From Ruegeria sp. EL01 (GTDB lineage Bacteria > Pseudomonadota > Alphaproteobacteria > Rhodobacterales > Rhodobacteraceae): a stretch of DNA of 64,000 nt. The position numbers and the translations under genes were made by a program. Shown here piece after piece: positions 16,106 through 34,298 of this stretch. Position 1 is the stretch's first letter. Every line of letters starts with the position of its first letter. The DNA lies in NCBI RefSeq assembly GCF_900313035.1, contig NZ_OMPS01000048.1, positions 124,001-188,000 on the forward strand, given 5' to 3'. The notes beneath the pieces were generated by a model. It had not been told where the DNA came from. It saw only the letters and a program-made list of their open reading frames with translations, and searched no databases.

Positions 16106-16120
16106 GTTTCCAAAGCTCCC

Positions 16121-17665: not shown

Positions 17666-19818
17666 TAGTGCGCCCCTCCGCCGATCGACATCCAAGTAAC
17701 CAGAGCGGCTATGCCCAGAACCATCCAAAACGCATAGGTAAAGATATACCCGGTCTGCGCTTTGCCCGCGAGGCGCGTGAAGAAGGGAACTACGCCCATT
17801 GCCACTCCGTTCAGGAAGCCGTCGATTGTATTGCCGTCCCCGCGCTTCCACAGGAACCGGCCAATTGCCAAGGTGGGTTTAACGAAGACCGCATCGTAGA
17901 TTTCATCAAAGTACCACTTGTTCAGCAGGAACAGGTACAGCGGTCGCTGGTTCGCAGCCAAACGCGCGGGCAGCGAAGTGTTCACAATGTAGAACCAATA
18001 GGCCACGATGAAGCCCAGTGCCATTGCGACAAACGGTGAGACCTTGACCCAATTCGGAGCGGCATGCGCATCGTCCAGAACATGGTTGTCCGGCGCAATG
18101 TACAAGGCACCCTCGCCCGGCTCACCAGCGAAGACATAGTGGTGGTCACCACCATGGGCCGCTTTGTCACCCTGCGCAGCGTCATCGCCATGGCCGTCAT
18201 CCGCGTGCGTTTCATCTGCATGCGCGTCTTCACCATCGGTCGTATCAGCAGGGCCGTGATCACCACCCTCGGCATGCTCGGATGCCTCAGCCACCGGAAT
18301 GCCATAGAACTTGCCGACTTTATCCGTATGACCAAAGAAGTTGCCGTACCAAATCATCCCGGCAAAGACCGCGCCCAAAGACAGAACGCCCAGCGGTATC
18401 AGCATGGACATCGGGCTTTCATGCGCGTGCTCATGCGTATGCTTGTCGCCCCGCTCTTCGCCATAGAATGTCAAGAAGATCAGCCGCCAGCTGTAGAAAG
18501 AGGTAAATGCAGCGGCGATCACCAGCATCCAGAACGCGTATCCTGTGCCGCCCGCAAAGGCGCTTTCAATGATCGCGTCCTTGGACAGGAACCCAGCAAA
18601 GCCAATCTGCGTCAGCGGAATGCCCACACCTGTGATGGCCAGCGTTCCGATCATCATGGCAGCGAATGTATAGGGAATTTTCTTCCGCAAGCCGCCGTAT
18701 TCCGTCATCTCCTGCTCGTGATGCATCGCGTTGATGACTGAGCCGGCCCCAAGGAACAATAGTGCCTTGAAGAAAGCGTGTGTCAGCAGGTGGAACATCG
18801 CCGCCGAATACATGCCTACGCCAGCCGCCACAAACATGTAGCCCAACTGAGAACAGGTCGAATACGCAATTACGCGCTTGATGTCAGTCTGAACCAAACC
18901 CACGGTCGCGGCAAAGAACGCTGTCGAAGCACCCAAGAAGGTGATGAACCCAGTCGCACCCGGTGCGAATTCCATCAGCGGTGACATGCGGCAGATCAAG
19001 AAGACGCCAGCGGTTACCATGGTCGCAGCATGAATCAGGGCCGATACCGGTGTCGGGCCTTCCATCGCGTCCGGCAACCATGTGTGCAGGATCAGCTGCG
19101 CCGATTTACCCATCGCGCCGATGAACAGCAGCACACAAATCACCTCGATGGCGCTCCATTCACCCCAAAGGAAATGCAATTGCGTTTCTGCCAGTTTCGG
19201 GGCCGAGGCAAAGATGTCCGAAAAGTTGATGCTGTCTGTCAGGAAGAACAGCGCAAAGATACCGAGCGCAAAACCAAAGTCCCCGACACGATTGACGATG
19301 AACGCCTTCATCGCTGCGGCATTGGCGGTCGGTTTGCGATAGTAGAAGCCAATCAACAAATAGGATGCGACACCCACGCCTTCCCAGCCAAAGAACATCT
19401 GCACCAGATTATCTGCCGTCACCAGCATCAGCATGGCGAAGGTGAAGAAAGACAGATAGGCGAAGAAGCGCGGCTTATAGCTCTCGCCTTCGCGCCATTG
19501 CGGATCATGAGCCATGTAGCCGAAGGAATAGAGGTGCACGAGCGCCGAGACGGTGGTCACCACGATCAGCATGATCGCTGTCAGTCGGTCCAGACGCACG
19601 GCCCAGCTTGTCGACAGCGAACCGCTCTCGATCCAGCGCATGATCTCGATCTGCTGGGTGACACCGTCGAAGGTTAGGAAAACGATCCAAGACAGCAGGC
19701 AGGCCAGAAACAGCAGACCCGTGGCGGTCCACATCGCGGCTTTTTCACCGATAAATCGCCAGCCAAAGCCGCAAAGCAACGCGCCCACCAGCGGGGCAAA
19801 GAGGATGGTGGTTTCCAT
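17665..19818 (-). CDS. nuoL: NADH-quinone oxidoreductase subunit L, with His/Asp-rich insert
   Basis: The 717-residue protein is the largest membrane subunit of complex I, with about 16 membrane segments and the long lateral helix that spans the membrane arm. Core motifs are [16 protein letters not shown] and [20 protein letters not shown]. Between the last core segments, residues about 511-563 form a charged stretch holding eight His and eleven Asp, and a smaller [10 protein letters not shown] cluster stands before it. These inserts make the protein about 100 residues longer than the E. coli form and lie in a loop outside the channel. Confidence 0.95.
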
Positions 19819-19824
19819 ATTCTC

Positions 19825-20130
19825 TTACCCCTTCATCATATTGACGTCTTCAACCGCGATGGTGCCACGGTTGCGGAAGAAGCAGACCAGAATGGCCAGA
19901 CCAATCGCCGCCTCGGCCGCTGCCACGGTCAGAACAAACAGCGTAAACACCTGCCCGACCAGATCGCCGAGGAAGCTTGAGAACGCCACAAGGTTGATAT
20001 TCACCGCCAGCAGCATCAATTCGATGCTCATCAGCAGGATGATGACGTTCTTGCGGTTCAGGAAGAGACCGAAGATGCCGATGACGAACAGCGTCGCCGC
20101 GACCGTAAGATAGTGTTCAAGTCCGATCAT
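19825..20130 (-). CDS. nuoK: NADH-quinone oxidoreductase subunit K
   Basis: The 101-residue protein has three membrane helices and the two conserved Glu residues of the proton path (IELMLLAVN, and [12 protein letters not shown]). It begins at ATG 20130, sharing one base with the stop of the small unknown gene upstream (TAATG) where nuoJ would normally stand. Confidence 0.95.
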
Positions 20131-20453
20131 TAGCCAGTCTTCCTATCAATGAAATCCAAGATCGCGACGCCGTACACATCCTCTACTGCATCAATTGCCG
20201 CGTCGATTGCTTGAAAGCGATCCAGTGTTTTCCTGCCATCCAATTCGCTGGTGAATGCCGAAGCAGATGCAGCTTTGATCCCTTCATCCGAAAGGAAAAC
20301 TCCGGCTTGCCTTGCTTCAACGATGAACCTTGCCAAGATCTGAGGCAGTACGCTGCCTTGCTCACCGGAGGCAACAGCATCCACATACTCCGCCCAGTAC
20401 TTAGTACCAGCGAAGAAAGTGCCGTTGAACCCGTTGTCGACTATTTCACTCAC
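20130..20453 (-). CDS. Unknown 107-residue protein inserted between nuoJ and nuoK
   Basis: I do not recognise this family. The predicted protein is soluble, acidic and helical ([20 protein letters not shown], then [20 protein letters not shown]). It starts with GTG at 20453 inside the nuoJ stop (GTGA overlap) and ends at 20130 sharing a base with the nuoK ATG (TAATG), so it is stitched exactly into the junction. Rows I counted here are about 50% G+C against about 60% in nuoJ. Its position implies co-expression with complex I; a role in the complex is not shown. The overlaps on both sides make a real gene likely. Confidence 0.65.
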
Positions 20454-21052
20454 AACCCCTGCCCCGGTTTCACGTCCTTCAGCTCCATCGCCTTGGCTGG
20501 GTCGCGCATCATCTGGCCGATGATGTCCTGCCGCTTGATGTCCTTGCGGTGGCGCAGGGTCAGAACAATGGCGCCGATCATGGCCACCAGCAGGATCAGG
20601 CCCGCCAGTTGGAACAGAAGGAAGTATTGATCGTACAGGATAACACCCAGTGCTTCGGTGTTGTGGCGGTCCACTGGCACCGGCTGTGCCAGATTGGTCG
20701 CTGCGCCCTGTGCGCTGTCCCATGCGCCGAAGGCCATGACAAACTGCATCAGGATGACCAGACCGATCAGCAAAGCCAACGGCATATAGCGCGCCATCTC
20801 GGCTTTCAACTCCGCAAAGTCCACATCCAGCATCATCACCACGAAGAGGAACAGAACCGCGACCGCGCCGACATAGACGATGATCAGCAGCATCGCCACA
20901 AATTCAGCCCCCAGCAGCACGAACAGCCCCGCTGCAGAAAGAAACGACAGGATAAGCCACAGAACAGAATGCACCGGCTGGCGGCTGATCACCGTGAACA
21001 GCCCGCCGGTGATGGCGCTGATGGCAAACAGGTAGAAGGCAAAGACGGTCAT
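20450..21052 (-). CDS. nuoJ: NADH-quinone oxidoreductase subunit J
   Basis: The 200-residue protein has five membrane helices, including the one with a pi-bulge near [17 protein letters not shown], which links quinone chemistry to proton pumping in complex I. Its ATG overlaps the stop of the upstream CMD-family gene by four bases, and its stop overlaps the GTG of the unknown gene that separates it from nuoK. Confidence 0.95.
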
Positions 21053-21459
21053 TGATCCTCATCCTCGTTATCGCCCATGACCTCTTGCGCCAGTTCCAGC
21101 GCGCGGCTCATGGCCGGGATGCCGGCAAAGACCGACATCTGACCGATCGTTTCCACGATCTCTTGTTTCTTGGCACCCGCCTCAAGCGCATGGCGCACAG
21201 TCTGACGCACCGCCGCATCCGCTTGCGCGCCCTGACAGGTCAGCCCGGCCAGCGTCAACAGCAGGCGAGTTTTGGCGTCCAGCCCGTCCTTGTTGACTGT
21301 GTTGCCGAACATCATCTCCATGACTTCTTTCGGCATGGTCGGCCACAGCGTCTCGAACCCTTTGGGCGAGAAGCTCTCAAGCCCCGGATTCATCGCCTTG
21401 GCCATGTCCTGCGCCTGTTTGAGCATCTGTTCAAATGGATTTGTCGGCGTGTCACTCAT
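21049..21459 (-). CDS. Carboxymuconolactone decarboxylase (AhpD-like) family protein in the nuo operon
   Basis: The 136-residue protein has the helical CMD-family core ([19 protein letters not shown], then [20 protein letters not shown] and [18 protein letters not shown]). It has only one Cys at the usual active site instead of the CxxC of AhpD, so peroxidase activity is doubtful. It lies between nuoI and nuoJ with 4-base ATGA overlaps on both sides, which fixes the start at 21459. Unrelated reading frames between nuo genes are known in Rhodobacter, so this may be a clade-specific accessory gene. Confidence 0.8.
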
Positions 21460-21950
21460 CTGTACGGCGCGTCCATTTCCAGATTGCGGGCGATCTCGGC
21501 TTCCCAACGTTCACCGTTGTCGAGCAGTTTTTCCTTGTCGTAGAATAGCTCTTCGCGGGTTTCGGTGGCGAACTCGAAGTTCGGACCTTCGACAATAGCA
21601 TCTACCGGGCAGGCCTCTTGGCAGAAGCCGCAATAGATGCACTTGGTCATATCAATGTCGTACCGCGTGGTGCGGCGGCTGCCGTCTTCGCGTGGTTCAG
21701 CGTCGATGGTGATGGCCTGCGCCGGACAGATCGCCTCGCAGAGTTTGCAGGCGATGCAGCGTTCTTCACCGTTTGGATAGCGACGCAGGGCGTGCTCACC
21801 GCGGAAACGCGGCGACAAGGGGCCCTTTTCGTGTGGGTAGTTGATGGTGGCCTTGGGGGCGAAGAAGTACTTCAACCCCAGCTTCATGCCGACCCAAAAG
21901 TCCTGCAGCAAAAAGTACTTGGCGGCGCGGGTATAGTCGATTTGTGTCAT
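21456..21950 (-). CDS. nuoI: NADH-quinone oxidoreductase subunit I
   Basis: The 164-residue ferredoxin-like subunit carries the two [4Fe-4S] clusters N6a and N6b: [18 protein letters not shown] and [18 protein letters not shown]. It passes electrons through the peripheral arm of complex I to the NuoB cluster. It follows nuoH by one base and overlaps the CMD-family gene by four. Confidence 0.96.
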
Positions 21951-21951
21951 A

Positions 21952-22989
21952 TCAGCCTCCTACGCTCCAACGGGCATACGCGCCCCAGAACCAGTCGAAT
22001 TTCGCTGCAAAGGCCACGAAGACCACCCAAGCCAAAGAGAACGGAAGGAAGACTTTCCAGCCCAGCCGCATCAGCTGGTCATAGCGGTAGCGCGGCGTGA
22101 TCGCTTTGACCATCGCGAAGAGGAAGAAGAAGAACGCCATTTTGGCGACCATCCACAGGACCCCATCGGGCAGGCCCGGGATCGGCGACAGCCAGCCGCC
22201 GAAGAACAGCAATGTAGTCAGCGCGCACATCAGGAAGATGGCGATATATTCGCCCGCCATGAACAGCAGGAAGGGTGTGGCCGAGTATTCGACCTGATAA
22301 CCTGCGACCAGTTCCGACTCCGCCTCGGGCAGATCAAACGGGGGGCGGTTGGTTTCAGCCAGCGCCGAGATGAAGAACAAGAAGACCATCGGGAAATGCG
22401 GCAGCCAGTACCAGTTGAACAGACCTAGATTGCCATCTTGTGCCTGCACAATCGCGCCGAAATTCATCGACCCGGTCGAGAGGATCACACCAATGATGAT
22501 CAGACCGATAGAGACTTCGTAAGAAATCATCTGCGCGGCGGAGCGCAAGGAACCGAGGAAAGGATACTTTGAGTTCGACGCCCAACCGCCCATAATCACG
22601 CCATAAACCTCCAGCGAAGACACGGCGAAGACATACAGGATTGCGACGTTTATGTCGGACAGAACCCAGCCATCGTTGAACGGGATCACCGCCCAGGCGA
22701 TCATCGCCAGAACAAAGGATGTCAGCGGTGCGAGGATAAAGACAGTGCGGTCGGCCCCGGCCGGGATAACCACCTCTTTCACCACATATTTCAGCGCATC
22801 CGCTACGGTTTGCAGCAGCCCGTACACGCCAACGACGTTGGGGCCCCGGCGCATCTGAACAGCCGCCCAGATCTTGCGGTCGCCATAAACAAGGAACAAC
22901 AGAGAGATCATTACAAAGGCAACAACTGCAAGCACTTGCGCCAGAATGATGATGGCTATTCCGCCTGGGGTGGTAAAGAAATCAGCCAT
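21952..22989 (-). CDS. nuoH: NADH-quinone oxidoreductase subunit H
   Basis: The 345-residue, eight-helix membrane subunit forms much of the quinone chamber of complex I. Signature stretches are [16 protein letters not shown] and [19 protein letters not shown] with conserved Glu residues. The ATG at 22989 overlaps the stop of the small frame upstream by eight bases. Confidence 0.96.
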
Positions 22990-23206
22990 TGGTCCTCACA
23001 CCGTGGGTATTCCGTTTTCCGCGTGCGATGCAAAGGCCATGTGCCTGCGCATATTGCGGCTGGGTCGGCGCGTTGGTGTAAACAGCATCTGCCGCTATTG
23101 TGCCACCCTTTTTGTTCAGCTTCATATGCAAATCACACACGTCCACCCGCCATCTGGTGTCACGCGTCAGCGCGTGTGAATGCGATATGACAACGGTCTG
23201 CATCAT
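22982..23206 (-). CDS. Possible small protein between nuoG and nuoH
   Basis: A 74-residue frame fills the otherwise empty gap of about 210 bases between nuoG and nuoH. It begins at ATG 23206 overlapping the nuoG stop (ATGA) and ends eight bases inside nuoH. The product is basic, with [20 protein letters not shown] and [15 protein letters not shown]; no domain is recognised. The double overlap resembles the other inserted genes, but length and composition alone do not prove coding. Confidence 0.4.
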
Positions 23207-25224
23207 TCCGCAGCCATCTGTTCGGCTTTGCGCGCCTGTGCTTGCGCCGACAGTTCGGCCATCAATTCTGAGGCGCGCGCAATCGGATTGGTCAGATAGA
23301 AATCTTTGATCGCATTGCGGAAAGTCGCCTTGCCCAAAGGTGCCGCGTCCAGAGCCAGCACTTCATTCTCAATCACTTCGTCAAGTTGGGCCAGATGTGG
23401 CACGGCTTCGATCAACGCGGTGCGCAGTTGCGCCAATGAGTCGAAGGGTAACGTCGCATCCAGTTCTGCAGACAAAGCCCGCAGGATGGCCCAGTTTTCC
23501 TTGGCCTCGCCTGGTGCGAAACCGGCGCGCATCGCCAGTTGCGGGCGGCCTTCGGTGTTCACGAACAGCCCGTTTTCTTCGGTATAGGCAGCGCCCGGCA
23601 AGATCACGTCGGCGCGGTGCGCCCCGCGATCGCCATGGCTGCCCTGATAGATGACGAAGGCGCCATCGCCGATTTCGACCTCGTCCGCACCCAGGTTATA
23701 GATCACATCCGCAGCACTGACGGCGTCCATGCCGCTTTCGTTGGTGGCACCCACATCCATCGCACCAACGCGCGAGGCTGCGGTATGAAGGATCAGCAGA
23801 CCGCTCTCGGTATTGATTGCAATGGACTGCGCGGCCGCCAGTACGGCAGCGCCATCCGCTTCTTGCAACGCCCCTTGTCCGACAATGACCAGAGAGCGTT
23901 TGCCCTTGATCTGGTCATCACCGCCCATGTCGACGGCCTTTTGTAGCGCAGCGCGGTCATCACCCATATGGTGGTAGCCGTAGGTCAGATCCGCTGCGTG
24001 CCCGACCAGCGCCACCTCGGCCCCATGTGCCCAAGCCTTGCGGATACGCGCGTTCAGAACCGGAGATTCATCACGCGGGTTTGTTCCGATCAGCAAAATA
24101 CGCTCGGCCGTATCGATGTCTTCGATTGCGGCCGTCCCGGCATAGGCCCCACGGTTTCCCGCGGGCAACTTGGCCCCGTCAGTGCGGCATTCAACAACAC
24201 CACCCTGCCCTTCAATCATCTGTTTCAGCGCAAAGATCGCCTCGACGGGCGCCAGATCACCTACAATCCCGGCTGGTTTTTGAGCTCCTTTGAACGCTTC
24301 GGCCGCTTTCGCCAGTGCCTCCGGCCATGTCGCGGCACGCAGTTTGCCGTTTTCGCGCACGTAAGGGCGGTCCAGCCTTTGGCGACGCAAACCGTCCCAG
24401 ACAAAGCGGGTCTTGTCGCTGATCCATTCCTCGTTCACGCCGTCATGATTGCGCGGCAGGAATCGCATCACTTCGCGGCCTTTGGTGTCGACACGGATGT
24501 TGGAACCCAAAGCATCCATCACATCGACAGATTCCGTCTTGGTCAGCTCCCACGGCCGCGCTGTAAAGGCGTAAGGCTTGGACGTCAGCGCACCAACCGG
24601 GCAGAGGTCAATGATGTTGCCCTGCAGGTTGGAATCGAGCGTTTCGTTCAGATACGCAGTAATTTCGGCATCTTCTCCGCGCCCGGTTTGACCCATCTGG
24701 GTGATCCCGGCCACCTCGGTGGTGAATCGAACGCAGCGGGTGCAGCTTATGCAGCGGGTCATCGCGGTGCCGACAAGCGGTCCGAGGTTCAGATCGTCGA
24801 CTGCACGTTTCGCCTCTTTGAAACGCGAACCTGCCATCCCGTAGGCCATCGCCTGATCCTGCAGGTCACACTCGCCGCCCTGATCGCAGATCGGGCAATC
24901 CAGTGGGTGATTGATCAGCAGAAACTCCATCACCCCTTCGCGGGCTTTTTTGACCATGGGCGAGTTCGTTTTGACCACCGGCGCCTGCCCTTCCGGCCCG
25001 GCGCGCAAATCCCGCACCTGCATCGCGCAGGAGGCCGCCGGTTTCGGCGGGCCGCCCACGACTTCGACCAGACACATCCGGCAGTTCCCGGCAATCGACA
25101 AGCGCTCGTGGTAACAAAAGCGCGGCACTTCGACCCCGGCCTGTTCGCAGGCCTGGATTAGGGTCATTGCACCATCGACTTCGATTTCCTGCCCGTCGAT
25201 ATTGACTTTGCGGAGGTCAGACAT
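23203..25224 (-). CDS. nuoG: NADH-quinone oxidoreductase subunit G
   Basis: The 673-residue subunit has an N-terminal [2Fe-2S] ferredoxin domain ([19 protein letters not shown]), the His/Cys cluster region ([18 protein letters not shown]), a [4Fe-4S] site ([11 protein letters not shown]), and a molybdopterin-oxidoreductase-like fold without molybdenum. It is the length of the mitochondrial NDUFS1 type rather than the longer E. coli form. It relays electrons from NuoF to NuoI. Confidence 0.96.
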
Positions 25225-25231
25225 GATTTCG

Positions 25232-25678
25232 TTAGCCTTTCAGCAATGCACCGATCCTGGTGCTGTTGGCAATCTCGCGACGACCGGCTGCACAGAAAGT
25301 ACTGGATTCACCAATAACAACTCCGCTTTTCTGGATGTACGCTATTAGGTCATCCTGCGCCCGCTTCCGTGGAATGTTCCTAGCCAGATAACGAAGATCA
25401 CTCTCAAGATAGCCCTTGGTTTTCAGGTCTTCGTCTAGCACTTTCATCTGGCTTTCAGCAGCAGATCGGTTGAATTTGATTGAGGAACACTCGTCCGAGA
25501 TTTGTTCCGCTACCGCCGCGGCAAAGGCAAAGTCATACACTTCCGGTGGAATCTCACTCCGGAACTCAGCCCGAGACGCCGCGGATTCGGTGCCATTAGT
25601 TGTCGTCGTTTCGCACGCAGAAAAAGCCATGAACAGGGCCAGACCAAACAAACCGTGCATTGGTATCTTTGTGATCAT
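25232..25678 (-). CDS. DUF5333-like lipoprotein, copy 1
   Basis: The 148-residue protein has a signal peptide with a lipobox-like FMAFSAC, then a Ser/Thr-rich linker and a helical domain. It aligns with the next gene: [11 protein letters not shown] against ANEISDYCPSI, and [21 protein letters not shown] against NSFCTLGRTEIERNSAIGVYL, with two cysteines in the same places. I place both in the Rhodobacterales family DUF5333 (function unknown) from memory of its size and Cys pattern. It is 7 bases upstream of nuoG in the operon. Confidence 0.7.
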
Positions 25679-25681
25679 CCC

Positions 25682-26086
25682 TCAGTTCGCCCTCAAATAA
25701 ACGCCGATGGCGCTGTTTCTTTCGATTTCCGTACGGCCCAGTGTGCAGAAGGAATTCGGATTGTCATAGGACACGCCGTGCTGCGACAGATAGGCCTCAC
25801 CCTTGGATCGCATCCGGTTTTTTTCAGAATCAGAGTCCACGTAGGCGCGGATTTCCTTGTCCGAATATCCCAGTTTGTTCGCCTTGGACCGCAATCCCCA
25901 CATCACCCCGATCGCCTTCATCCGGCGTCCGCTGATCGACGGGCAATAGTCCGAAATTTCGTTTGCAATGGCGATATAGTAGAGTTCGTTGTCGATCTCT
26001 TTGACATCTCTCAAGGGCGGTTTTGCTTCTGCCGCCGCCGGGATTGTCATGAGGGCCGCCAGAGCGATTGTTTTTACAAAAGACAT
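25682..26086 (-). CDS. DUF5333-like exported protein, copy 2
   Basis: The 134-residue protein has a plain signal peptide (FVKTIALAALMTIPAAAEA) and a helical domain with two conserved cysteines (ISDYCPSI and PNSFCTLG), probably a periplasmic disulfide. It is a paralogue of the gene just downstream, from which it is separated by three bases. ATG 26086 has AAGGAGA six bases upstream and was preferred over an ATG at 26200. A strong hairpin lies directly before this ribosome-binding site. Confidence 0.72.
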   Translation of the reverse strand: MSFVKTIALAALMTIPAAAEAKPPLRDVKEIDNELYYIAIANEISDYCPSISGRRMKAIGVMWGLRSKANKLGYSDKEIRAYVDSDSEKNRMRSKGEAYLSQHGVSYDNPNSFCTLGRTEIERNSAIGVYLRAN

Positions 26087-26098
26087 GGTTTCTCCTTT

Positions 26099-26119
26099 CG
26101 TCTTGGGTTCCCCAAGACG
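26099..26119 (-). promoter_or_regulatory. Strong hairpin before the second DUF5333-like gene
   Basis: CGTCTTGGG at 26099-26107 and CCCAAGACG at 26111-26119 form a perfect 9-bp stem with a 3-base loop. In the direction of transcription it ends at the AAAGGAGA ribosome-binding site of the gene starting at 26086. There is no T-run, so it is more likely an RNA-stability or processing element inside the operon than a terminator. Confidence 0.5.
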
Positions 26120-26184
26120 ACGTGCGACCGATTTGCTATGCAATAACAGCCCGAGGATCGTGTCATGATATGCAAAAACACGAC

Positions 26185-26541
26185 TCATGGTCTTTGGCAC
26201 GTCCCAGCAAATGTCAGCTTGTCATCACTTATCTGCAATTGCTGTGGCTCGGTATCCGGGCCAACTTTCCACTCGATCCGCGACGAGCCGAAATTTTCAA
26301 TACAGAACTTTGTTCCCTCATAGCGCCCCGCCTCACGGGCGCCGTCCAGCGATGCGGACACACCGTTTATGACCACCGTAAAATTGGCCGGAGAGACTTT
26401 CTTGTCCACCACCTTTGCCTTGGCCCGAAAGGACTGACCATCAAACAGAATCCGATCATCGGACGGCCTGAACAATCCACAGGCCGACACCATAAGACAC
26501 GCAGAAACAAGTGTTGCTCCCGTAAGGACGACTTTATTCAA
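26185..26541 (-). CDS. Small lipoprotein of unknown function in the nuo operon
   Basis: The protein of about 118 residues starts with a lipoprotein signal (NKVVLTGATLVSACLMVSAC, lipobox VSAC) and then a small beta-rich domain with one later Cys pair (FCIENFG and AGTCQRP). No family was recognised. GTG 26550 and TTG 26541 are both possible; TTG was chosen because GGGGGTGG lies six bases before it and it gives a typical lipoprotein N-terminus. It is not overlapped by neighbours: 98 bases follow it and about 80 precede it. Confidence 0.6.
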   Translation of the reverse strand: MNKVVLTGATLVSACLMVSACGLFRPSDDRILFDGQSFRAKAKVVDKKVSPANFTVVINGVSASLDGAREAGRYEGTKFCIENFGSSRIEWKVGPDTEPQQLQISDDKLTFAGTCQRP

Positions 26542-26567
26542 GGTAACCACCCCCGTTTAGTGGCTGG

Positions 26568-26586
26568 CCTGAGCGGCTTGTCGAAG
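26568..26586. repeat. Copy of a CCTGAGC-TTGTCGAAG type repeat, with insertion
   Basis: CCTGAGC at 26568-26574, GGC, then TTGTCGAAG at 26578-26586 matches, apart from the extra GGC, an intergenic sequence that I know from other proteobacterial genomes as CCTGAGCTTGTCGAAGG. It lies in the noncoding gap between the DUF3291 gene and the small lipoprotein gene. A palindromic AGTCGACT follows at 26585-26592. Only one copy was noticed in this window. Confidence 0.35.
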
Positions 26587-26620
26587 TCGACTGAGACTGT
26601 AAATCGTGTCTGCATCGTCT

Positions 26621-27124
26621 TCACTCCGCCGCAACCCGGGCGCACCGATTGTCGCGCCACTTGCTTGCCTGTTTCAATTCATCCCAGCCAAAGGCTTGGG
26701 CGTCGGGACCATTTGCCCGCAGCTGGACCAACCGCTCTAACGCTTCTTCGAGGGTCGGTTTATGCCCAGCGGGCACCCACCACATCACAAAATGCTGGTC
26801 ACCCAGTACCTCGAACCAGTCGTGTCGGCGATCGTAGAACTGTTTATGGATTGTGCCCCAAACAAAGCGCTCAAGACTTTCGACGTTTTCCCAAACAGTC
26901 ATATTGGCAACGAATTGCGGGTCGCCGTCGATGTTGTTTTCGGTATTGCCGGTTCCCGGCTCGCCCGATCCTTCCATCATCCAGACAAAGCCCGGCATGC
27001 GTTTCCCAAGCCCGTTGATACGGTCGAGGTTGTCCATGAATTCGGCCACACGCGGATCGTCGGTCGGCGCCAGTAAACGCCCGACGTTCAGTTCGGCAAG
27101 ATGATATCCGTCAGGCTGAATCAA
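26621..27124 (-). CDS. DUF3291 family protein
   Basis: The 167-residue protein has the DUF3291 pattern: GYHLAELNVGRLLAPTDDPR at the start, NLDRINGLGKRMPGFVWMM, NMTVWENVESLERFVWGTIH and FVMWWVPAGHKPTLEEAL. The fold is of the antibiotic-monooxygenase-like kind, function unknown. The start is TTG at 27124, overlapping the stop of the MAPEG gene (TTGA); the frame is open further upstream but only as a shadow of that gene. It is part of a five-gene block between nuoF and nuoG. Confidence 0.82.
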   Translation of the reverse strand: MIQPDGYHLAELNVGRLLAPTDDPRVAEFMDNLDRINGLGKRMPGFVWMMEGSGEPGTGNTENNIDGDPQFVANMTVWENVESLERFVWGTIHKQFYDRRHDWFEVLGDQHFVMWWVPAGHKPTLEEALERLVQLRANGPDAQAFGWDELKQASKWRDNRCARVAAE

Positions 27125-27537
27125 AACGCCGCCACCAGTGCCATGACGCCAAGAGCAATCATGCACACCCATCCGATCACGTAAAAAGTCGAGCGCAGCC
27201 CGCTGGTTGGCTTTCCTAGTCCTTGCAGGTGGACCACCAGCATGACAATCCGTGCAACCAACGCAACAGATGCCAACAGATTTACCCAGAAGGGGCTTGC
27301 CCCAAGCAAGATCGCAGCCAGCGTCACTGTCAGAAATGCAGGAAGCGTTTCCGTGCCGTTCAGATAGGCGCGGTTCATCCGATAGGCTTTGTCGGAGTAA
27401 TCCTGCTCTGGCGTAGCCCCTGGCGCCAATCCCTTGCCAGCCTTGGCAAGCGCCGAGAACGGCGACATGAATAGAACGATCAGCGTGAAAATCACCAGTG
27501 AGGCGATCGCGTGGGAATACAATCCAAATACATCCAT
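27121..27537 (-). CDS. MAPEG family membrane protein
   Basis: The 138-residue protein has four membrane helices and the MAPEG pattern RMNRAYLNGTETLPAFLTVT, which in the family lies at the glutathione-binding helix. MAPEG members are membrane glutathione transferases or eicosanoid enzymes; the bacterial substrates are mostly unknown. ATG 27537 lies 5 bases after the nuoF stop with GGAG overlapping that stop. It is likely co-expressed with complex I. Confidence 0.85.
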   Translation of the reverse strand: MDVFGLYSHAIASLVIFTLIVLFMSPFSALAKAGKGLAPGATPEQDYSDKAYRMNRAYLNGTETLPAFLTVTLAAILLGASPFWVNLLASVALVARIVMLVVHLQGLGKPTSGLRSTFYVIGWVCMIALGVMALVAAF

Positions 27538-27542
27538 CAATC

Positions 27543-28841
27543 TTACTCCGCTGCCATCGCACCCATGCGACCCGATTTCTGGGCCTTGATGCGGTCTTCG
27601 ATTTCTTCCCGGAAATTGCGGATAAGACCCTGGATTGGCCAGGCCGCTGCGTCCCCGAGTGCGCAAATCGTGTGGCCTTCGACCTGCTTGGTCACGTCGA
27701 ATAGCATATCGATCTCTTCCAGTTCCGCTTCACCGCGCACCAGCCGATCCATGACCCGCATCATCCAGCCGGTGCCTTCCCGGCAGGGCGTGCACTGGCC
27801 GCAGCTTTCATGTTTGTAGAACTTGGACAGCCGCCAGATCGCCTTGATGATATCGGTGGATTTGTCCATCACAATTACCGCAGCCGTCCCGAGGCCCGAG
27901 CCCAGATCGTTGCGCAGGTGATCGAAATCCATGATCGCATCGCGCATATTTTCGCCTCGTACACATGGCACCGAGGATCCACCCGGTATCACCGCCAGCA
28001 GATTATCCCAACCACCGCGAATGCCGCCGCAATGGGTTTCGATCAGTTGTTCAAACGGGATCGACATCGCCTCTTCGACGACACAAGGATTGTTCACATG
28101 ACCCGAAATGGCGAACAGCTTGGTGCCCGCGTTGTTCTGACGACCAAAGCCTGCAAACCAGTCAGCACCGCGCCGCAGAATGGTAGGGACAACGGCGATG
28201 GATTCTACGTTGTTCACCGTGGTCGGGCAGCCATAAAGACCCGCGCCCGCCGGGAATGGCGGCTTCATGCGCGGCATGCCCTTCTTGCCTTCAAGGCTTT
28301 CAATCAGCGCGGTCTCTTCGCCGCAGATGTAAGCACCCGCCCCATGATGCAGGAACAGATCGAAATCCCAGCCTGATCCGGCTGCGTTCTTGCCCAGCTG
28401 CCCTGCGTCGTAGGCTTCATCAATCGCGGCCTGAAGCGCCTCGCGTTCACGAATGTATTCGCCGCGCAGGTAGATATAACAAGTGTTTGCGTTCATCGCG
28501 AAAGACGCGATCAGGCAGCCTTCGATCAGCGTATGCGGATCATGGCGCATGATTTCGCGGTCTTTGCAGGTCCCGGGTTCGGATTCGTCGGCATTCACCA
28601 CCAGATAAGCCGGGCGACCATCGCTTTCCTTGGGCATGAATGACCATTTCAATCCAGTTGGAAAGCCTGCGCCCCCACGACCCCGCAAGCCTGAATCCTT
28701 CATCGTTTGAATGATCCAGTCGCGCCCGTTGCCGATCAGGCCAGCAGTACCGTCCCAATGCCCCCGAGCGCGCGCGCCCTTCAGCGTCCGCTCGTGCATC
28801 CCGTAGATGTTGGTAAAGATCCGGTCCTGATCCTTCAGCAT
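27543..28841 (-). CDS. nuoF: NADH-quinone oxidoreductase subunit F
   Basis: The 432-residue subunit binds NADH, FMN and [4Fe-4S] cluster N3. FMN/NADH motifs are [19 protein letters not shown] and [19 protein letters not shown]; the cluster ligands are in [12 protein letters not shown] with the last Cys in [13 protein letters not shown]. It is the electron entry point of complex I. It is followed five bases later by the MAPEG gene. Confidence 0.96.
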
Positions 28842-28848
28842 CGCTCGC

Positions 28849-29073
28849 TTACCTTTGGTTGTCCTGACGCATGCGCCAGAGTTGAAATATGTTGATCACC
28901 GCGTAGATGAATCCGCCCAATGCAGCGAAATCGAACAGCAGCGCATAGCGCCCGGGCAGTTTCAAAGCCGGGCCGATGAACAGCGACATAGCGAGCCACA
29001 ACAGCATGGTCACAGCGATGACCACCCCGATATGTCGGCCCTTGCGGGCTATGGCCTGTTCCTTGTCGTCCAT
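28849..29073 (-). CDS. DUF5337-like small membrane protein
   Basis: The 74-residue protein has two membrane segments ([20 protein letters not shown] and [20 protein letters not shown]) and charged ends. Size, topology and place between nuoE and nuoF match the Rhodobacterales family I know as DUF5337, of unknown function. ATG 29073 was chosen; a GTG at 29100 is also in frame. It is eight bases upstream of nuoF. Confidence 0.75.
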
Positions 29074-29111
29074 CTTATCCCGGCACCCAATTGGCACCAC
29101 TCATCCCCGTA

Positions 29112-30254
29112 TCAGTCTTCGTAAAGTCCGTCTTTTTTGGCCCGTTTGGCAAATTCTGTCACATCACCCGATGCCAGTTTTGACGCCTGTTCGATCCAAC
29201 CATCGCGCTCGATCCGGCCCTTGAACTTCAATCGCGCATCAACCCACGCCACGTGCCCGTCTGTCCAGGCTGCGATCTGGTCAAAGTGGTAAAAGCCCAG
29301 TTCGTTCAACGTCTGCTCCAACTTCGGGCCGACGCCTTTCAACAGCTTCAGATCATCTGGCGCGCCACCCCGGGCACCAGTCAACGTCTCGGGCTGATCT
29401 TCCTTAACCTCGGCCGGTTTTGCTTCGGCTTTCTTGGTCTTGGCAGGTTTGGATTTAGCCTCGGCCGCCTGCTTTGCCGCAGATTTGCCAGTTGCAGGTG
29501 CCTTTGGTGGTTTCGGAGCCGACTTCGTCGCCGCGGCTTTGCCATCCTTGCCCAACCATGGCGTCAGGATCGGCACTTCGGTTCCGTCGATCCGTTTTAC
29601 GGTGTCACCCAGATCAGTCGCCAAAGCGACACTGGCATTGTATTGCGGCTTGCCTGCGTCATGCTCGGTCAGACTGGACAGACCACTGAAAGGTTCTGCG
29701 GCATAGCGCCCGTTTTGCGGGCCCGGCAGCGGCACTTTGCCCGCTGCCAGATCGTCGATGATCTTACCAAAACTCTCGGCCGTCAGATCTTCGTAGTAAT
29801 CCTTGCCGATCTGCGCCATCGGCGCGTTGGTGCAGGAGCCCAGACACTCGACCTCTTCCCAGCTCAGCTTGCCATCGGCGGACAAAGCATGCGGTTTCTC
29901 GGCGATCTTGACCTTGCAGACCGCGATCAGGTCTTCGGCCCCGCAGATCATGCAGGAGGTCGTGCCACACACTTGAATATGTGCAACCGACCCAACCGGT
30001 TGCAATTGGAACATGAAGTAGAAAGAGGCGACTTCAAGAACCCGGATATAGGCCATGCCCAGCATGTCAGCCACGGATTCAAGTGCAGGACGGCTCAGCC
30101 AGCCCTCCTGCTCCTGCGCGCGCCACAACAGAGGGATGACCGCACTGGCCTCACGACCCTCGGGGTACTTGGTGATCTGCGCTTCGGCCCATTGCTGGTT
30201 GGTAGCGGTGAAGGCAAAGCTTTCGGGTTGTTCGGGGTGAAGACGGCGAAGCAT
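29112..30254 (-). CDS. nuoE: NADH-quinone oxidoreductase subunit E with C-terminal extension
   Basis: The first 170 or so of 380 residues are a normal NuoE: [2Fe-2S] cluster N1a is held by Cys96, Cys101, Cys137 and Cys141 ([11 protein letters not shown] and [11 protein letters not shown]). After this come about 70 residues of spacer, then an Ala/Lys/Pro-rich linker and, at about 300-357, a helix-hairpin-helix-like domain ([20 protein letters not shown]). That domain type also occurs on other proteins in this group, such as ribosomal protein L21. E. coli NuoE is only about 166 residues. The ATG at 30254 follows the stop of the unknown gene by two bases. Confidence 0.93.
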
Positions 30255-30256
30255 CC

Positions 30257-30853
30257 TTATTTCTCCAAAGCCCAAAGGCCGTACTTGTCGCCCGTCACAA
30301 CGTTGAAATCGACCGAGCTCATATATTTTTGACTAGGATTACTTGCGTAACGTAACTTCACTTCGTCACCATATCTGATCAGGTTTTGCGGATCAGGAAT
30401 GTTCGGGATATCTGCGATCCTAGCAAACTCTGAAAAGTCCGGCAGATCCATTCTTTCCATAATCGCGGTAATTTCGCTCTCGTGAAGATCAGCGTGATCT
30501 AACAATACAACGCCCGTCGTTTCTCTTGGAACCGTTTGGTGCACGGCCTTTAGTTCCTTCCAATCACGCCACTCGTCGTTTAGAAAGATTAGCGCGCCAC
30601 CTGCTCCAACCAATAGACCGATGAGCATGCCGAGTGCAGACAAGATAACTTTACCCTGACCAGCTCTCTTGGCCACGCTCTCCGCAGCGTCTGTTTTTTC
30701 TTCTTGCTCGCCCAACTTCTTACTTATTGTGACCAGAAGCTCGGCAACTTCTTCTTTGTCCAACCTGCTAACTTGGGATATAGCTTCTCGCTCAGCATCT
30801 TCGGGCTTAGCGCTAGCCGCTCGAAGAGCTGTATTCAAAGATACGATGTTCAC
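30257..30853 (-). CDS. Unknown membrane protein inserted between nuoD and nuoE
   Basis: The 198-residue protein has a charged coiled-coil-like N-terminal part ([20 protein letters not shown]), one or two membrane segments at about 69-90 ([20 protein letters not shown]) and a C-terminal soluble part. No family was recognised. It begins with GTG 30853 overlapping the nuoD stop (GTGA) and ends two bases before nuoE. Rows I counted run at 38-48% G+C against about 68% in nuoD, so it is probably a recent arrival. Confidence 0.72.
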
Positions 30854-32073
30854 CGATCAATCTCCCCAAACACGACGTCCATCGTCCCAATGATCGCAGC
30901 GACGTCGGCCAATTGGTGGCCTCCGGCGATGTAGTCCATGGCTTGCAGGTGTAAGAACCCCGGCGCGCGCAGTTTGGCGCGGTATGGCTTGTTGGTGCCG
31001 TCAGCGACCAGATAGACGCCGAATTCGCCCTTGGGGGCCTCAACGGCGGCGTACACCTCGCCCGCAGGGACATGGAAGCCTTCGGTATAGAGCTTGAAGT
31101 GATGGATCAGGCTCTCCATCGAGGTCTTCATGTCCGACCGGCTTGGCGGCGTGATCTTACCGCGCGCCAGAATATCACCTGGGCACTCGCGGATTTTGGC
31201 GATGGCTTGACGGATGATCAGCAGCGACTGGCGCATCTCTTCCATACGCACCAGATAGCGGTCGTAGCAGTCGCCGTTCTTGCCCACAGGAATCTGGAAC
31301 TCAAACTCGTCATAGCATTCATAGGGCTGTGCACGGCGCAGATCCCAGGCCAGGCCAGACCCGCGCACCATGACGCCCGAGAAGCCGTATTTCTGAATGT
31401 CATCTTCGGTCACGACGCCAATGTCAGCGTTGCGCTGTTTGAAGATGCGGTTTTCGGTCAGTAGCCCGTCGATGTCATCCATCACAGCAGGAAACTCGTG
31501 GCTCCACGCCTCGATATCGTCCAGCAATTCGGGCGGCAGGTCCTGATGCACACCGCCGGGGCGGAAATAGGCTGCGTGCAGACGCGCGCCACAGGCACGC
31601 TCATAAAACACCATCAGCTTTTCGCGTTCTTCAAAGCCCCAGAGCGGCGGGGTCAGCGCGCCGACGTCCATCGCTTGCGTGGTTACGTTCAGCAGATGGT
31701 TCAGGATGCGCCCAATCTCGGAATACAGCACCCGGATCAGCGAGGCGCGGCGGGGCACTTCAACGCCGGTCAGTTTTTCAATGGCCAGACACCAGGCGTG
31801 TTCCTGATTCATCGGCGCCACGTAATCGAGGCGGTCGAAATACGGCAGGTTTTGCAGATACGTCCGGCTTTCCATCAGCTTTTCAGTGCCGCGGTGCAGC
31901 AGGCCGATATGCGGATCGCAGCGTTCGACGATTTCGCCGTCCAACTCAAGCACCAAACGTAAAACGCCGTGCGCAGCAGGATGTTGCGGGCCGAAGTTAA
32001 TGTTAAAGTTGCGGATCTTCTGCTCGCCGCTCAGCGCGTCCGAACTGCCGTCATCATATCTGGAGCCGTCCAT
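30850..32073 (-). CDS. nuoD: NADH-quinone oxidoreductase subunit D
   Basis: The 407-residue 49-kDa-type subunit lines the quinone site of complex [21 protein letters not shown] with the quinone-binding His, and conserved [20 protein letters not shown]. It is a separate gene from nuoC, as in mitochondria-like complex I. ATG 32073 shares a base with the stop of the 45-residue frame upstream (TGATG); a GTG at 32076 is also possible. Confidence 0.96.
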
Positions 32074-32210
32074 CACCGCCGTCCCCTCTTGTTCTTCTTT
32101 GCCGCAGCTCGAACCCGAACCTTCTCGGCGTCAGCCGCCTTGGCTGCAGCACCCGCGAGCAGGACGCCCAGCGCACCTAAAGCAATCAGTTCCCCCAGCA
32201 GCATCAGCAT
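32073..32210 (-). CDS. Very small (45-residue) membrane protein before nuoD
   Basis: A short frame at ATG 32210 encodes one hydrophobic helix ([20 protein letters not shown]) and a strongly basic tail ([15 protein letters not shown]). It starts one base after the stop of the 57-residue frame and its stop shares a base with the nuoD ATG. Tight packing in the operon and membrane-like composition suggest a real microprotein; no family was recognised. Confidence 0.55.
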
Positions 32211-32211
32211 C

Positions 32212-32385
32212 TCAGCGGCGCTCCAATTCCTGAAGTTTCAACCCGACCCACCACAGCAGCGCGATGGTGCCAAACGGGATCAGACACAGCAGACACCAGT
32301 ATTTGTTGATTCCAAAAAACGGCAGAATTTTCACCATCGGGATGATGGTCAGTGCGGAAAGGATCAGCCACCAGATACCACTCAT
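32212..32385 (-). CDS. Small (57-residue) membrane protein after nuoC
   Basis: ATG 32385 shares a base with the nuoC stop (TAATG). The product has two hydrophobic stretches (IWWLILSALTIIPMVKILPF and CLLCLIPFGTIALLWWVGL) with a CLLC motif and ends in LQELERR. The composition is clearly membrane-like and the placement exact. It could be a small complex I-associated subunit; function unknown. Confidence 0.62.
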   Translation of the reverse strand: MSGIWWLILSALTIIPMVKILPFFGINKYWCLLCLIPFGTIALLWWVGLKLQELERR

Positions 32386-32990
32386 TATTCGGCCTCCTGC
32401 TTCTCATCGCCCGGCAGAATGTACTCTGCCCCCTCCCACGGGGACATGAAGTCAAACTGACGGTATTCCTGCACCAGCGAGACCGGCTCGTACACGACAC
32501 GTTTTTGCGCCTCGTCATAGCGAACTTCGGTATAGCCTGTGGTCGGAAAGTCCTTGCGCAGCGGATGACCGCGGAATCCATAATCCGTCAGAATACGCCG
32601 CAGATCCGGGTGGCCCGAAAACAGGATACCGAACATGTCATACACCTCACGCTCGAACCAATTGGCCGAGGGATGCACGTCGACAATCGACGGAACCATG
32701 TCCTCTTCCCGGATCGAGACCCGCAGGCGGATGCGCTGGTTCTGGTACATGGACAGGAAGTGATAAACCACGTCGAACCGCTTGGCCCGCTCGGGGTAGT
32801 CGACGCCGGTGATATCGACCAAGGTCGAGAATTTGCAGCTTGGGTCAGTTTTCAGAAATTCGATGAATTCGACCAGGTTGGACGGGGCCACGCCAACGTT
32901 CAGCTCACCATGCGTGACGTCCCAGGACAAAACACAATCGGTCCGTTTCAACTCCAGCTGGGTCCCAAGTTCTTTGAGTACTTCGCTCAC
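32385..32990 (-). CDS. nuoC: NADH-quinone oxidoreductase subunit C
   Basis: The 201-residue 30-kDa-type subunit of the peripheral arm has the family signature [20 protein letters not shown] and [16 protein letters not shown]. The start is GTG 32990, overlapping the stop of the unknown gene upstream (GTGA). It is separate from nuoD. Confidence 0.95.
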
Positions 32991-33412
32991 TGCTTCAACT
33001 CCTCAACAGAATTGGCGGAAAGTTCGGCGTTCGCCGGGTCTGGAAACTCCCAGAAACACTCACTCCCACCATGATCTGCTGCCAGATTTCCCAGTGTCTG
33101 TTCAATCATAGAAATCAAGCGCACCTCTGCCTTCGCAGCGACAGAATAAGTCACATCGACCAAGTCCTCATCCTCATCGCAAAACAAGGTGGCATCTGAT
33201 TTTCCTAGCCCATGGTCAGCCTCAATCAACCGCATCAAAGCACGTGCTTGATCCATAAAGGCCTCAGCGTCTTGCTTGCTTGGGAATTCGATTGTGAACT
33301 CAAAAGATAGCTTTTGACGCAGATCAACACCGTTTTCTTCGAAGCGCTGAAAAATAATGGCATTCTCCGCAATCAGCGCCTCAGATGGTTCTGCGTACAT
33401 CTCTGCTTTCAT
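32987..33412 (-). CDS. Unknown protein (possibly RraB-like) inserted between nuoB and nuoC
   Basis: The 141-residue acidic protein has an N-terminal helix, a strand-helix [20 protein letters not shown], and an end [13 protein letters not shown]. This loosely resembles the RraB/DUF695 fold of ribonuclease E regulators, but the match is weak and from memory only. It starts at ATG 33412 over the nuoB stop (ATGA) and ends over the nuoC GTG (GTGA). A counted row is about 47% G+C, lower than nuoB and nuoC. It is most likely a real, inserted gene. Confidence 0.65.
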
Positions 33413-33933
33413 CGAACAATCGTCCCAGTGCGGCGGATTTTGCGTTGCAATTGCATCAGGCCGTATAGCAGCGCCTCGGCCGTTGGTGGGCAGCCGGGGA
33501 CATAAATATCCACCGGAACGATACGATCACAACCACGTACAACCGAATAGGAATAATGATAATATCCACCGCCATTGGCACAGGATCCCATCGAGATCAC
33601 ATAGCGCGGCTCGGGCATCTGATCATAAACCTTGCGCAGTGCCGGGGCCATCTTGTTGGTCAGGGTACCTGCCACAATCATCACGTCAGACTGGCGTGGG
33701 GACGCGCGGGGCGCAATGCCAAACCGTTCCGCATCATAACGCGGCATCGAAGTATGCATCATCTCGACCGCACAACAGGCCAAACCGAAGGTCATCCAAT
33801 GCAACGAGCCGGTGCGCGCCCAATTGATAATGTCCTCGGTCGAGGTCAGCAGGAACCCTTTGTCCTGCAGCTCGGCATTCAGGGTCTGAGTGGCGACTTC
33901 TTTGTCGACGCCAGCCGTGTTTGCGCCCGTCAT
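33409..33933 (-). CDS. nuoB: NADH-quinone oxidoreductase subunit B
   Basis: The 174-residue subunit holds [4Fe-4S] cluster N2, the last in the chain before quinone. The ligands are the adjacent Cys53 and Cys54 ([10 protein letters not shown]), Cys118 (SMGSCANGG) and Cys148 ([14 protein letters not shown]). ATG 33933 overlaps the nuoA stop (TGATG) and was chosen over an ATG at 33942. Confidence 0.96.
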
Positions 33934-34298
33934 CACTCCCATTCCAAGGCTCCCTTCTTCCACTCATAGGCAAAGCCGATGGTCAGAACGCCCAGGAACA
34001 CCATCATCGACCAGAAACCCACATCGCTGATGTCTTTGAACCCAACGGCCCAAGGGAACAGGAACGCAATCTCCAGATCAAAGATGATGAAGAGAATCGC
34101 AACCAGATAGAACCGGACATCGAATTTCATGCGCGCATCATCGAAAGCGTTGAAACCGCATTCATAGGCGCTGACTTTTTCGGGGTCAGGATTGCGGACG
34201 GCCAGCACGACGGCGGCAAGAATCAAAACGATTCCAAGACCGACGGCCACGGCCAGAAACACCAGAATCGGGAGGTATTCCCGCAGCAGGTCTTCCAC
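33933..34298 (-). CDS. nuoA: NADH-quinone oxidoreductase subunit A
   Basis: The 121-residue, three-helix membrane subunit has the conserved loop [20 protein letters not shown] that sits at the quinone chamber entrance. The start is GTG at 34298 with AGGAG six bases upstream, which decides it against the open frame upstream to 34343. It is the first gene of the nuo operon. Confidence 0.95.

Follow-up and report, generated by a model that had tools for sequence, protein, structure and literature searches.

Turnover of small, slot-faithful genes in the Rhodobacteraceae nuo operon

Introduction

How can an operon take up and lose small genes at its stop/start junctions while its own genes stay translationally coupled? 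The question is raised by a 64,000-nucleotide (nt) stretch of Ruegeria sp. EL01 (contig NZ_OMPS01000048.1, positions 124,001 to 188,000; hereafter the window), in which the nuo operon for complex I carries 13 extra frames spread over eight of its 13 junctions, the H-I junction being empty. Gene entry into operons is usually inferred from ancient cases. Here, more than 100 sequenced relatives show gains, duplications, likely replacements, half-finished losses and exact borders within a single operon. Their comparison gives good support to a turnover of small nuo-operon genes that extends across the family and keeps to fixed slots, and the data are probably better explained by ordinary gain and loss, with selection retaining what leaves nuo translation intact and coupled, than by dedicated insertion.

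Results

Open and closed junctions

We compared the window operon with 80 named and 62 further Rhodobacteraceae operons (143 in all) and with 58 operons from other alphaproteobacterial families (201 in total). The family set includes incomplete operons, so that denominators vary by junction, and counts one genome twice (operons L067 and L099 are identical). The nuo genes were located by open reading frames (ORFs) and tblastn across the 201 operons, and Pfam was run on K, I, E and A of the window. Junction length was taken as the distance between the stop codon of a nuo gene and the start codon of its successor, and a junction of 150 nt or more was called filled. By this measure, nine junctions of the Rhodobacteraceae operon are open: B-C (filled in 12/119), C-D (76/123), D-E (79/131), E-F (130/133), F-G (134/135), G-H (130/142), H-I (40/140), I-J (128/140) and J-K (55/139). 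Four are nearly closed: A-B (2/109), K-L (6/139), L-M (2/138) and M-N (0/115). Of 738 junctions outside the family, 35 were filled and 703 measured less than 150 nt; the nuo operons of other orders are therefore mostly compact. Several junctions each are filled in L150, L178, L188, L189 and L191, all from outside the family, and open slots may thus have arisen more than once.

The closed junctions were unfilled in 491 of 501 family instances, whereas H-I is filled in more than a quarter of operons despite an empty gap of a few nucleotides. The usual gaps at K-L (4-7 nt), L-M (-1 nt) and M-N (about 12 nt) are not clearly tighter than those of empty H-I or J-K junctions (1-4 nt), so that closer spacing of the genes does not explain closure. 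At A-B the genes overlap by 10 nt under the chosen nuoB start, and this overlap may protect the junction.

Residents, fast turnover and slot fidelity

Slot genes fall into three layers: old residents, fast-turnover genes that are mostly orphans, and decaying genes. The residents comprise a carboxymuconolactone-decarboxylase-like (CMD-like) protein in 123 of the 143 operons, a G-H lipoprotein in 119, DUF5333 and DUF5337 proteins in 110 each, and an F-G lipoprotein-like family in 81. When occupancy is mapped on a tree built from seven nuo proteins (134 taxa, 2,306 columns), the Fitch minimum of changes between filled and empty is 11 for B-C, 28 for C-D, 29 for D-E, 30 for H-I and 35 for J-K, 133 in sum. 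At closer range, in 11 of the 15 operon pairs with more than 90% nuo DNA identity, at least one junction differs by more than 40 nt. When 295 genomes, the window's own counted, were searched with window proteins, the B-C gene found matches in four, all in the nuo B-C junction and one a 45-residue remnant with an in-frame stop; the D-E gene found them in two, both in the D-E junction; and the J-K gene only in the window's own genome. Even within Ruegeria, J-K products are unlike in length, N terminus and sequence.

Families nevertheless stay where they are: 42 of the 47 gene superfamilies with two or more members are confined to one junction. Single ORFs make up 178 of the 221 slot superfamilies of 60 amino acids (aa) or more, spurious ORFs included. 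All 16 rare ORFs rescued by hidden Markov models (HMMs) share their slot with the rescuing family, and the HMMs merge some families within a slot. These counts include family f10 at C-D, a wrong frame discussed below, as do the family and junction-ORF counts. We conclude that slots are often filled and emptied, that families with several members mostly keep to one slot, and that each slot has its own pool of gene families. Neighbours of the same family occur within one slot for DUF5333 (window 25232-26086), the CMD-like protein (I-J of L059) and family f13 (J-K of L060 and L071), which suggests tandem duplication as a second route of gene gain.

The window operon and its inserts

The window genome measures 5.3 Mb, and its closest named relatives by NuoG are Ruegeria, at up to 94% identity. 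The nuo operon runs on the minus strand from nuoA at about 34.3 kb to nuoN at about 14.7 kb, with the following host genes:

14663-34298, minus strand, nuoA-nuoN host operon (from ORFs and tblastn; some starts approximate)
33933-34298, minus strand, nuoA
33409-33945, minus strand, nuoB
32385-32990, minus strand, nuoC
30850-32073, minus strand, nuoD
29112-30257, minus strand, nuoE
27543-28841, minus strand, nuoF
23203-25224, minus strand, nuoG
21952-22989, minus strand, nuoH
21456-21950, minus strand, nuoI
20450-21052, minus strand, nuoJ
19825-20130, minus strand, nuoK
17665-19818, minus strand, nuoL
16121-17665, minus strand, nuoM
14663-16105, minus strand, nuoN

The inserted frames, with their guanine-cytosine (GC) fractions, are:

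32987-33412, minus strand, B-C slot, 141 aa, RraB-like (Pfam), GC 0.486, ATGA overlap at both ends
32212-32385, minus strand, C-D slot, 57-aa hydrophobic frame, GC 0.517, TAATG overlap with the nuoC stop
32073-32210, minus strand, C-D slot, 45-aa frame of a family called in 19 operons, GC 0.63, end at -1 to nuoD
30257-30853, minus strand, D-E slot, 198 aa with one hydrophobic stretch, GC 0.481, GTGA start within the nuoD stop
28849-29073, minus strand, E-F slot, DUF5337 small membrane protein, family in 110/143 operons, GC 0.56
27121-27537, minus strand, F-G gene 1, MAPEG-like, 138 aa, family f9 called in 31 operons, GC 0.554
26621-27124, minus strand, F-G gene 2, DUF3291, family f7 in 44 operons, GC 0.567, TTGA overlap with the MAPEG stop
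26185-26550, minus strand, F-G gene 3, 121-aa lipoprotein-like, lipobox by eye, family f5 in 81 operons, GC 0.527
25682-26086, minus strand, F-G gene 4, DUF5333 with signal-peptide-like N terminus, family f1 in 110 operons, start inferred
25232-25678, minus strand, F-G gene 5, second DUF5333, family f1
22982-23206, minus strand, G-H slot, 74-aa frame, probable lipoprotein relic, GC 0.551
21049-21459, minus strand, I-J slot, CMD-like, 136 aa, in 123/143 operons, GC 0.591, ATGA at both ends
20130-20453, minus strand, J-K slot, 107-aa orphan, GC 0.509, GTGA start and TAATG end

The extra frames that the original prediction had seen between the nuo genes are indeed open, at the expected ends or within a few codons of them, and the overlaps with stops and starts that it described hold on the left side of six junctions: ATGA at B-C, G-H and I-J, GTGA at D-E and J-K, and TAATG at C-D. 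Right borders vary, with -4 at B-C and I-J, -1 at C-D and J-K, -8 at G-H and a 2-nt gap at D-E. The E-F insert overlaps neither neighbour. Within the F-G slot, the MAPEG and DUF3291 frames share 4 nt; the first DUF5333 gene probably starts near 26086, and the second is probably a tandem duplicate of it. The original prediction called several inserts AT-richer, which holds for some of them: seven of the 13 lie below 0.53 GC (B-C, D-E, J-K, both DUF5333 genes, the F-G lipoprotein-like gene and the 57-aa C-D frame), with the 14 nuo genes at 0.536-0.604, but the other six do not (G-H, E-F, MAPEG, DUF3291, I-J and the 45-aa C-D frame). Across the family, the mean GC of rare inserts is 1.6 points lower than that of their own nuo genes (standard deviation 6.1), and we reject a general AT-richness of inserts.

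An overlapping 67-aa frame at C-D (family f10), picked by the ORF caller, was rejected as a wrong frame: in several pairs its synonymous divergence (pS) is far below flank expectation despite low protein identity.

Inserts are mostly genuine genes

Of 96 rare junctions in the family that hold a single gene and measure at least 150 nt, 60 are spanned by one ORF. The expectation is 4.7 after dinucleotide shuffling and 9 with the insert reverse-complemented; the frames, in the window and in the family, are therefore not due to chance. Of 1,375 ORFs called in the nine slots, 1,308 (95%) are codirectional with nuo. The ratio of nonsynonymous to synonymous rates (dN/dS) is below 1 in 23 of the 24 computable best pairs of small families (36 pairs, 12 of them saturated), which shows that the testable inserts are under purifying selection; pair f54, with a ratio of 4.5, is probably another wrong frame.

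Fit between inserts and nuo genes

How is the fit at the borders made? Inserts that could be tested mostly begin within or beside the stop of the preceding nuo gene. Of 198 inserts whose end adjoins an ATGA start, 151 share 4 nt with it, from which it follows that the nuo start context sets the right overlap. A Shine-Dalgarno 4-mer stands 4-18 nt before the next nuo start behind 55 of 81 rare, 62 of 72 mid and 310 of 430 core inserts, compared with control frequencies of 0.10-0.13 inside inserts (0.13 for the rare class). Since the 4-mer is commoner before the next nuo gene than before the insert, inserts pass a site on more clearly than they use one. At D-E, nuoD stops with TGA in 69 of 79 filled junctions versus 2 of 31 empty ones, which mostly read TAATG; the operons are related by descent, so that nominal p values of stop-codon statistics cannot be read as probabilities. 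In three close pairs the fill extends precisely from one start codon to the next, with ATGA or ATGAGC repeated: at H-I of the pair L053/L037 (flanks 99% identical) and at I-J of L028/L033 and L007/L011. Such a fit is not evidence for an enzyme, because coupling alone would demand it and no further matching was found.

Possible movement between strains

Several close pairs bear on how slot genes spread. L053 and L037 are about 96% identical overall and differ at D-E and H-I. At D-E, the last 100 nt of nuoD are 80% and the first 100 nt of nuoE 83% identical, most other stretches being 90-100% identical. At H-I there is no such flank tract, and the near-identity of the flanks indicates that the fill came in cleanly. 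Around the three junctions at which L007 and L011 differ, identity drops from 97% to 88% within nuoH, stays at 88.7% in nuoI and 91.7% in nuoJ and reaches 97.4% in nuoK, and other Ruegeria become the closest relatives; this mosaic is suggestive of recombination. The J-K genes of L002 and L007 belong to one family and have a pS of 0.62 versus 0.22 in the flanks, pointing to separate arrival.

Decay

In most of the family the G-H lipoprotein has about 128 aa and ends near ENGIPTV, and the G-H frame of the window and other Ruegeria has 68-79 aa. Alignment of the short frames finds the middle missing and the shared 3' DNA read in another frame. The original prediction counted 22982-23206 among the added genes; the frame is open, but it is probably a shrunken, frame-shifted relic of the longer lipoprotein gene. 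Its 3' DNA, adjoining the nuoH start, is strongly conserved. Shorter G-H remnants of 45 nt in L013 and 60 nt in L201 also occur, and the final 20 nt or so before nuoH are conserved. The B-C remnant in genome G371 keeps the C-terminal part of its gene. Two kinds of relic are thus seen to retain the part adjoining the nuo start or the C-terminal part.

Predicted functions

What do the slot genes do? We scanned 126 rare-insert proteins, one per family, taken from 144 of 85 aa or more. Eighteen were left out by hand: nine of L105, two of L082 and one of L083 (operons seemingly broken or very long), five long ORFs (L024, L073, L085, L091 and L113) and, by oversight, one of L045. The products carry few Pfam domains and show no theme. 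Under a crude home-made rule, export is predicted for 24 of the 52 tight rare inserts and for 71 of the 219 rare inserts overall, that is, for a third to half of them; the corresponding figures are 14 of 144 for inserts of control operons and 7% for shuffled sequences. The enrichment is moderate. We guess that diverse proteins, many of them exported, use the slots as sites of expression.

One slot product has a structural precedent. The E-F family f4 (81 operons) and a C-terminal extension of NuoE both match chain O of PDB 8yy9. In the window, this extension covers about residues 200-380 of NuoE (29112-30257) and is homologous to f4 and to protein-O, so that a complex I subunit and its operon neighbour have one domain in common. 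Protein-O is reported as a subunit of the reaction centre-light-harvesting 1 complex (RC-LH1) of Dinoroseobacter shibae, encoded, like f4, between nuoE and nuoF (PMC12079452); at least one slot product therefore works outside complex I. The window differs in having no separate f4 gene at E-F, and the photosynthetic link is claimed for D. shibae only.

Searches for mobile elements and donors

Neither mobile-element nor defence cargo stood out among the 126 rare inserts: they hit 37 Pfam (25 shown), 12 PADLOC and 25 PHROGs families, none matched by more than two proteins. An integrase or transposase theme was likewise absent from these Pfam and PHROGs families, no search having been aimed at one. 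We did not find the same cassettes at different sites; most superfamilies keep to one junction, and all four B-C and both D-E matches of the window genes lie in the same slot, which is not how mobile cassettes would be expected to behave. A plasmid origin was rejected for the D-E, J-K and B-C window proteins, none of which found a match by tblastn among 72,556 plasmids, and the D-E protein, the only one of the three compared with a phage collection, found none there. The H-I insert of L053 had one weak 38-residue match in the 295 genomes, away from nuo genes, and that of L007 none (a search without positive control).

At single-gene junctions with ATGA at both ends, borders show no significant matching beyond ATGA (p 0.82 for nine non-core and p 0.13 for 76 core inserts). 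A shared end or a short target motif, which the original prediction suggested looking for at the borders, was not found, and microhomology is not supported at the present power of nine non-core inserts.

Discussion

We envision that new genes would enter by ordinary illegitimate recombination or tandem duplication, and that the only survivors would be those that leave both nuo frames whole and the next gene translated. Most of the exactness of the borders would follow, since selection on intact nuo frames and coupling would force it. Once established, slot genes might spread between strains, and be replaced, by homologous recombination through the conserved nuo flanks, conceivably carried by gene transfer agents. 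Most genes of the fast layer, we guess, serve roles outside complex I and gain from steady expression. This filtered gain and loss retains one half of what had been proposed for the window, namely that genes are added with coupling preserved or rebuilt: close relatives have empty junctions, filled ones are tight, and most close pairs differ. The other half, a special adding process, was not shown, given the lack of border matching beyond ATGA, the confinement of superfamilies and the missing mobile-element theme.

A number of findings weigh against filtered gain and loss, or against the counts behind it. One-off families are possibly diverged orthologues, the tree was built from nuo proteins that may themselves recombine, and not all called ORFs are real (of 349 rare ORFs, 55 lie on the opposite strand); some of the 126 scanned ORFs match the nuo models PF00146, PF00384 and PF09326 and are not true inserts. 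As to borders, three of the nine close-pair comparisons gave an exact fit. In L016, spacers of 4 and 12 nt stay behind; two L032 fills sit tightly, but in place of a 3-4 nt spacer; and three further comparisons gave no clear picture. Only D-E has a clear stop-codon shift. J-K shows it less strongly (43/55 filled, 16/37 empty), as do B-C and G-H; H-I does not show it (p 0.68), and at C-D it runs in the opposite direction (46/76 versus 31/38). The first insert after a nuo gene has a Shine-Dalgarno 4-mer of its own in only 0.31-0.39 of cases; inserts generally do not take over a strong site and may rely on translational coupling themselves.

Spread is affected as well. The L007/L011 mosaic is not one clean block, as nuoG (89.6%) and nuoD (92.4%) diverge too; the J-K pS of L002/L007 is near saturation at about 39% protein identity; and the mean excess of pS over flanks is 0.19 in small, 0.15 in mid and 0.10 in core families, a modest difference between classes, with the largest families covered by sampling only. 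For slot genes we found no donor locus, and four query proteins among inserts of control operons resemble nuo inserts. Finally, on one Rhodobacteraceae plasmid the export rule picked 7 of 36 small proteins, versus 22 of 49 small inserts, and 33 of 118 of all its annotated proteins (118 of 130 plasmid genes, leaving out five cut genes, four insertion-element rows and three short ones).

A bolder extension of filtered gain and loss, which we offer tentatively, treats the operon as a gene nursery. Each junction would be a separate address served by a circulating gene pool of its own, made up mostly of orphans and rich in exported proteins. The genes would be start-to-start modules coupled to the upstream stop and passing a ribosome-binding site on to the next nuo gene, so that gaining, exchanging or losing a module would not cost the cell its complex I, and the closed K-L-M-N junctions would mark where complex I biogenesis bars strangers. 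A 2022 E. coli paper states in its title that the order of the nuo genes is not essential for assembly.

Might the slot genes instead encode Rhodobacteraceae-specific parts of complex I, either accessory subunits or factors for its assembly? Their fixed residence in nuo junctions and enrichment in export signals would fit, as would the domain that NuoE has in common with an E-F slot gene; a PDB chain matching that domain (9wqv) is named a 41-kDa complex I subunit. We nevertheless consider this doubtful. Protein-O sits in RC-LH1, genes of the fast layer are often missing from close relatives that retain the nuo genes, and the B-C, DUF5337 and DUF5333 products of the window, the three searched, had no match among solved structures. 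The supernumerary subunits of the Paracoccus denitrificans enzyme are reported as NDUFS4, NDUFS6, NDUFA12 and a methyltransferase (PMC11522691).

It is also unlikely that all slot genes are ancestral, patchily lost and too fast-evolving to be recognised, with little or nothing added recently. The resident families, present in 81-123 of 143 operons, the HMM mergers and rescues within slots, and the relics at G-H and B-C all speak for ancestry. Yet the H-I fill is present in one member only of the pair L053/L037, single-ORF superfamilies abound, Ruegeria J-K products are dissimilar, and junctions outside the family are nearly all short. The original prediction held that extras common to the whole family would be ancestral rather than inserted; many are indeed old and common to most of it, whereas the B-C, D-E and J-K genes of the window are lineage-specific.

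A dedicated process, site-specific or based on microhomology (for example at ATGA), that inserts start-to-start modules is very unlikely: three close-pair fills do run exactly start to start with ATGA or ATGAGC repeated, but ATGA at both ends follows from coupling alone, the borders show no significant further matching, most families do not hop, and no mobile-element theme recurs.

How does slot turnover relate to known systems? Unidentified reading frames (URFs) have reportedly been listed in the nqo/nuo clusters of single strains of P. denitrificans and Rhodobacter capsulatus. Like the slot genes they are small extra frames between nuo genes of Rhodobacteraceae, and the window has the same feature, in position and strand, of codirectional non-core frames; several window genes are putative orthologues of those frames. 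Unlike those reports, occupancy, turnover, slot fidelity and decay are measured here across 143 operons. Price and colleagues, in their "life cycle of operons", are said to describe the addition of ORFan genes to existing operons. The nuo slots likewise show new short genes joining an old operon, and presumably expressed from it as judged by position and strand; they differ in that the same junctions of one operon are refilled repeatedly by different genes. Accessory-gene hotspots between core genes are exchanged through flanking homologous recombination, and have conserved flanks, a variable middle and a patchy distribution. Variable content between conserved nuo flanks is also present in related genomes here, but the middle is usually one or a few genes within an overlapping operon, mostly codirectional and packed with hardly a base to spare. 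That nuo operons contain extra frames is already known; turnover and slot fidelity appear new, and we recognised no description of slot turnover in the open-access literature searched.

The nuo slots allow models of operon growth and translational coupling to be tested, and make the Rhodobacteraceae operon a good system for watching bacteria add genes to an important machine. Slot genes are mostly of unassigned function, and one is a relative of a photosynthetic subunit. Given the export signals found by the crude rule and the protein-O precedent, the slots are worth searching for new parts of energy-converting membranes.

Unusual fills and other operons

Some fills are unusually long, such as the F-G junction of L105 (about 9.2 kb) and the D-E junction of L024 with a 545-aa ORF. 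Family f11 at C-D, of about 297 aa, looks sulfotransferase-like by eye.

The idea that nuo is unique in carrying inserts is weakened by control operons, all from Rhodobacteraceae: junction instances of 150 nt or more number 35 of 330 in ribosomal clusters, 28 of 91 in dcw (seven genomes) and 13 of 22 in suc (four genomes), the latter two controls being small. Ribosomal fills are confined to four of 18 gene pairs, with loose inserts on mixed strands. In clusters L202-L221, for example, the L16-L29 junction (rplP-rpmC) measures 193-4,845 nt (n=15) and L30-L15 (rpmD-rplO) 84-3,512 nt (n=18); such wide junctions hold loose mixed-strand ORFs and most others are tight (names inferred from protein length and order). 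The sucA region (L229-L232, gene names inferred) has extra ORFs between conserved genes, and other energy-metabolism operons may therefore be hosts too.

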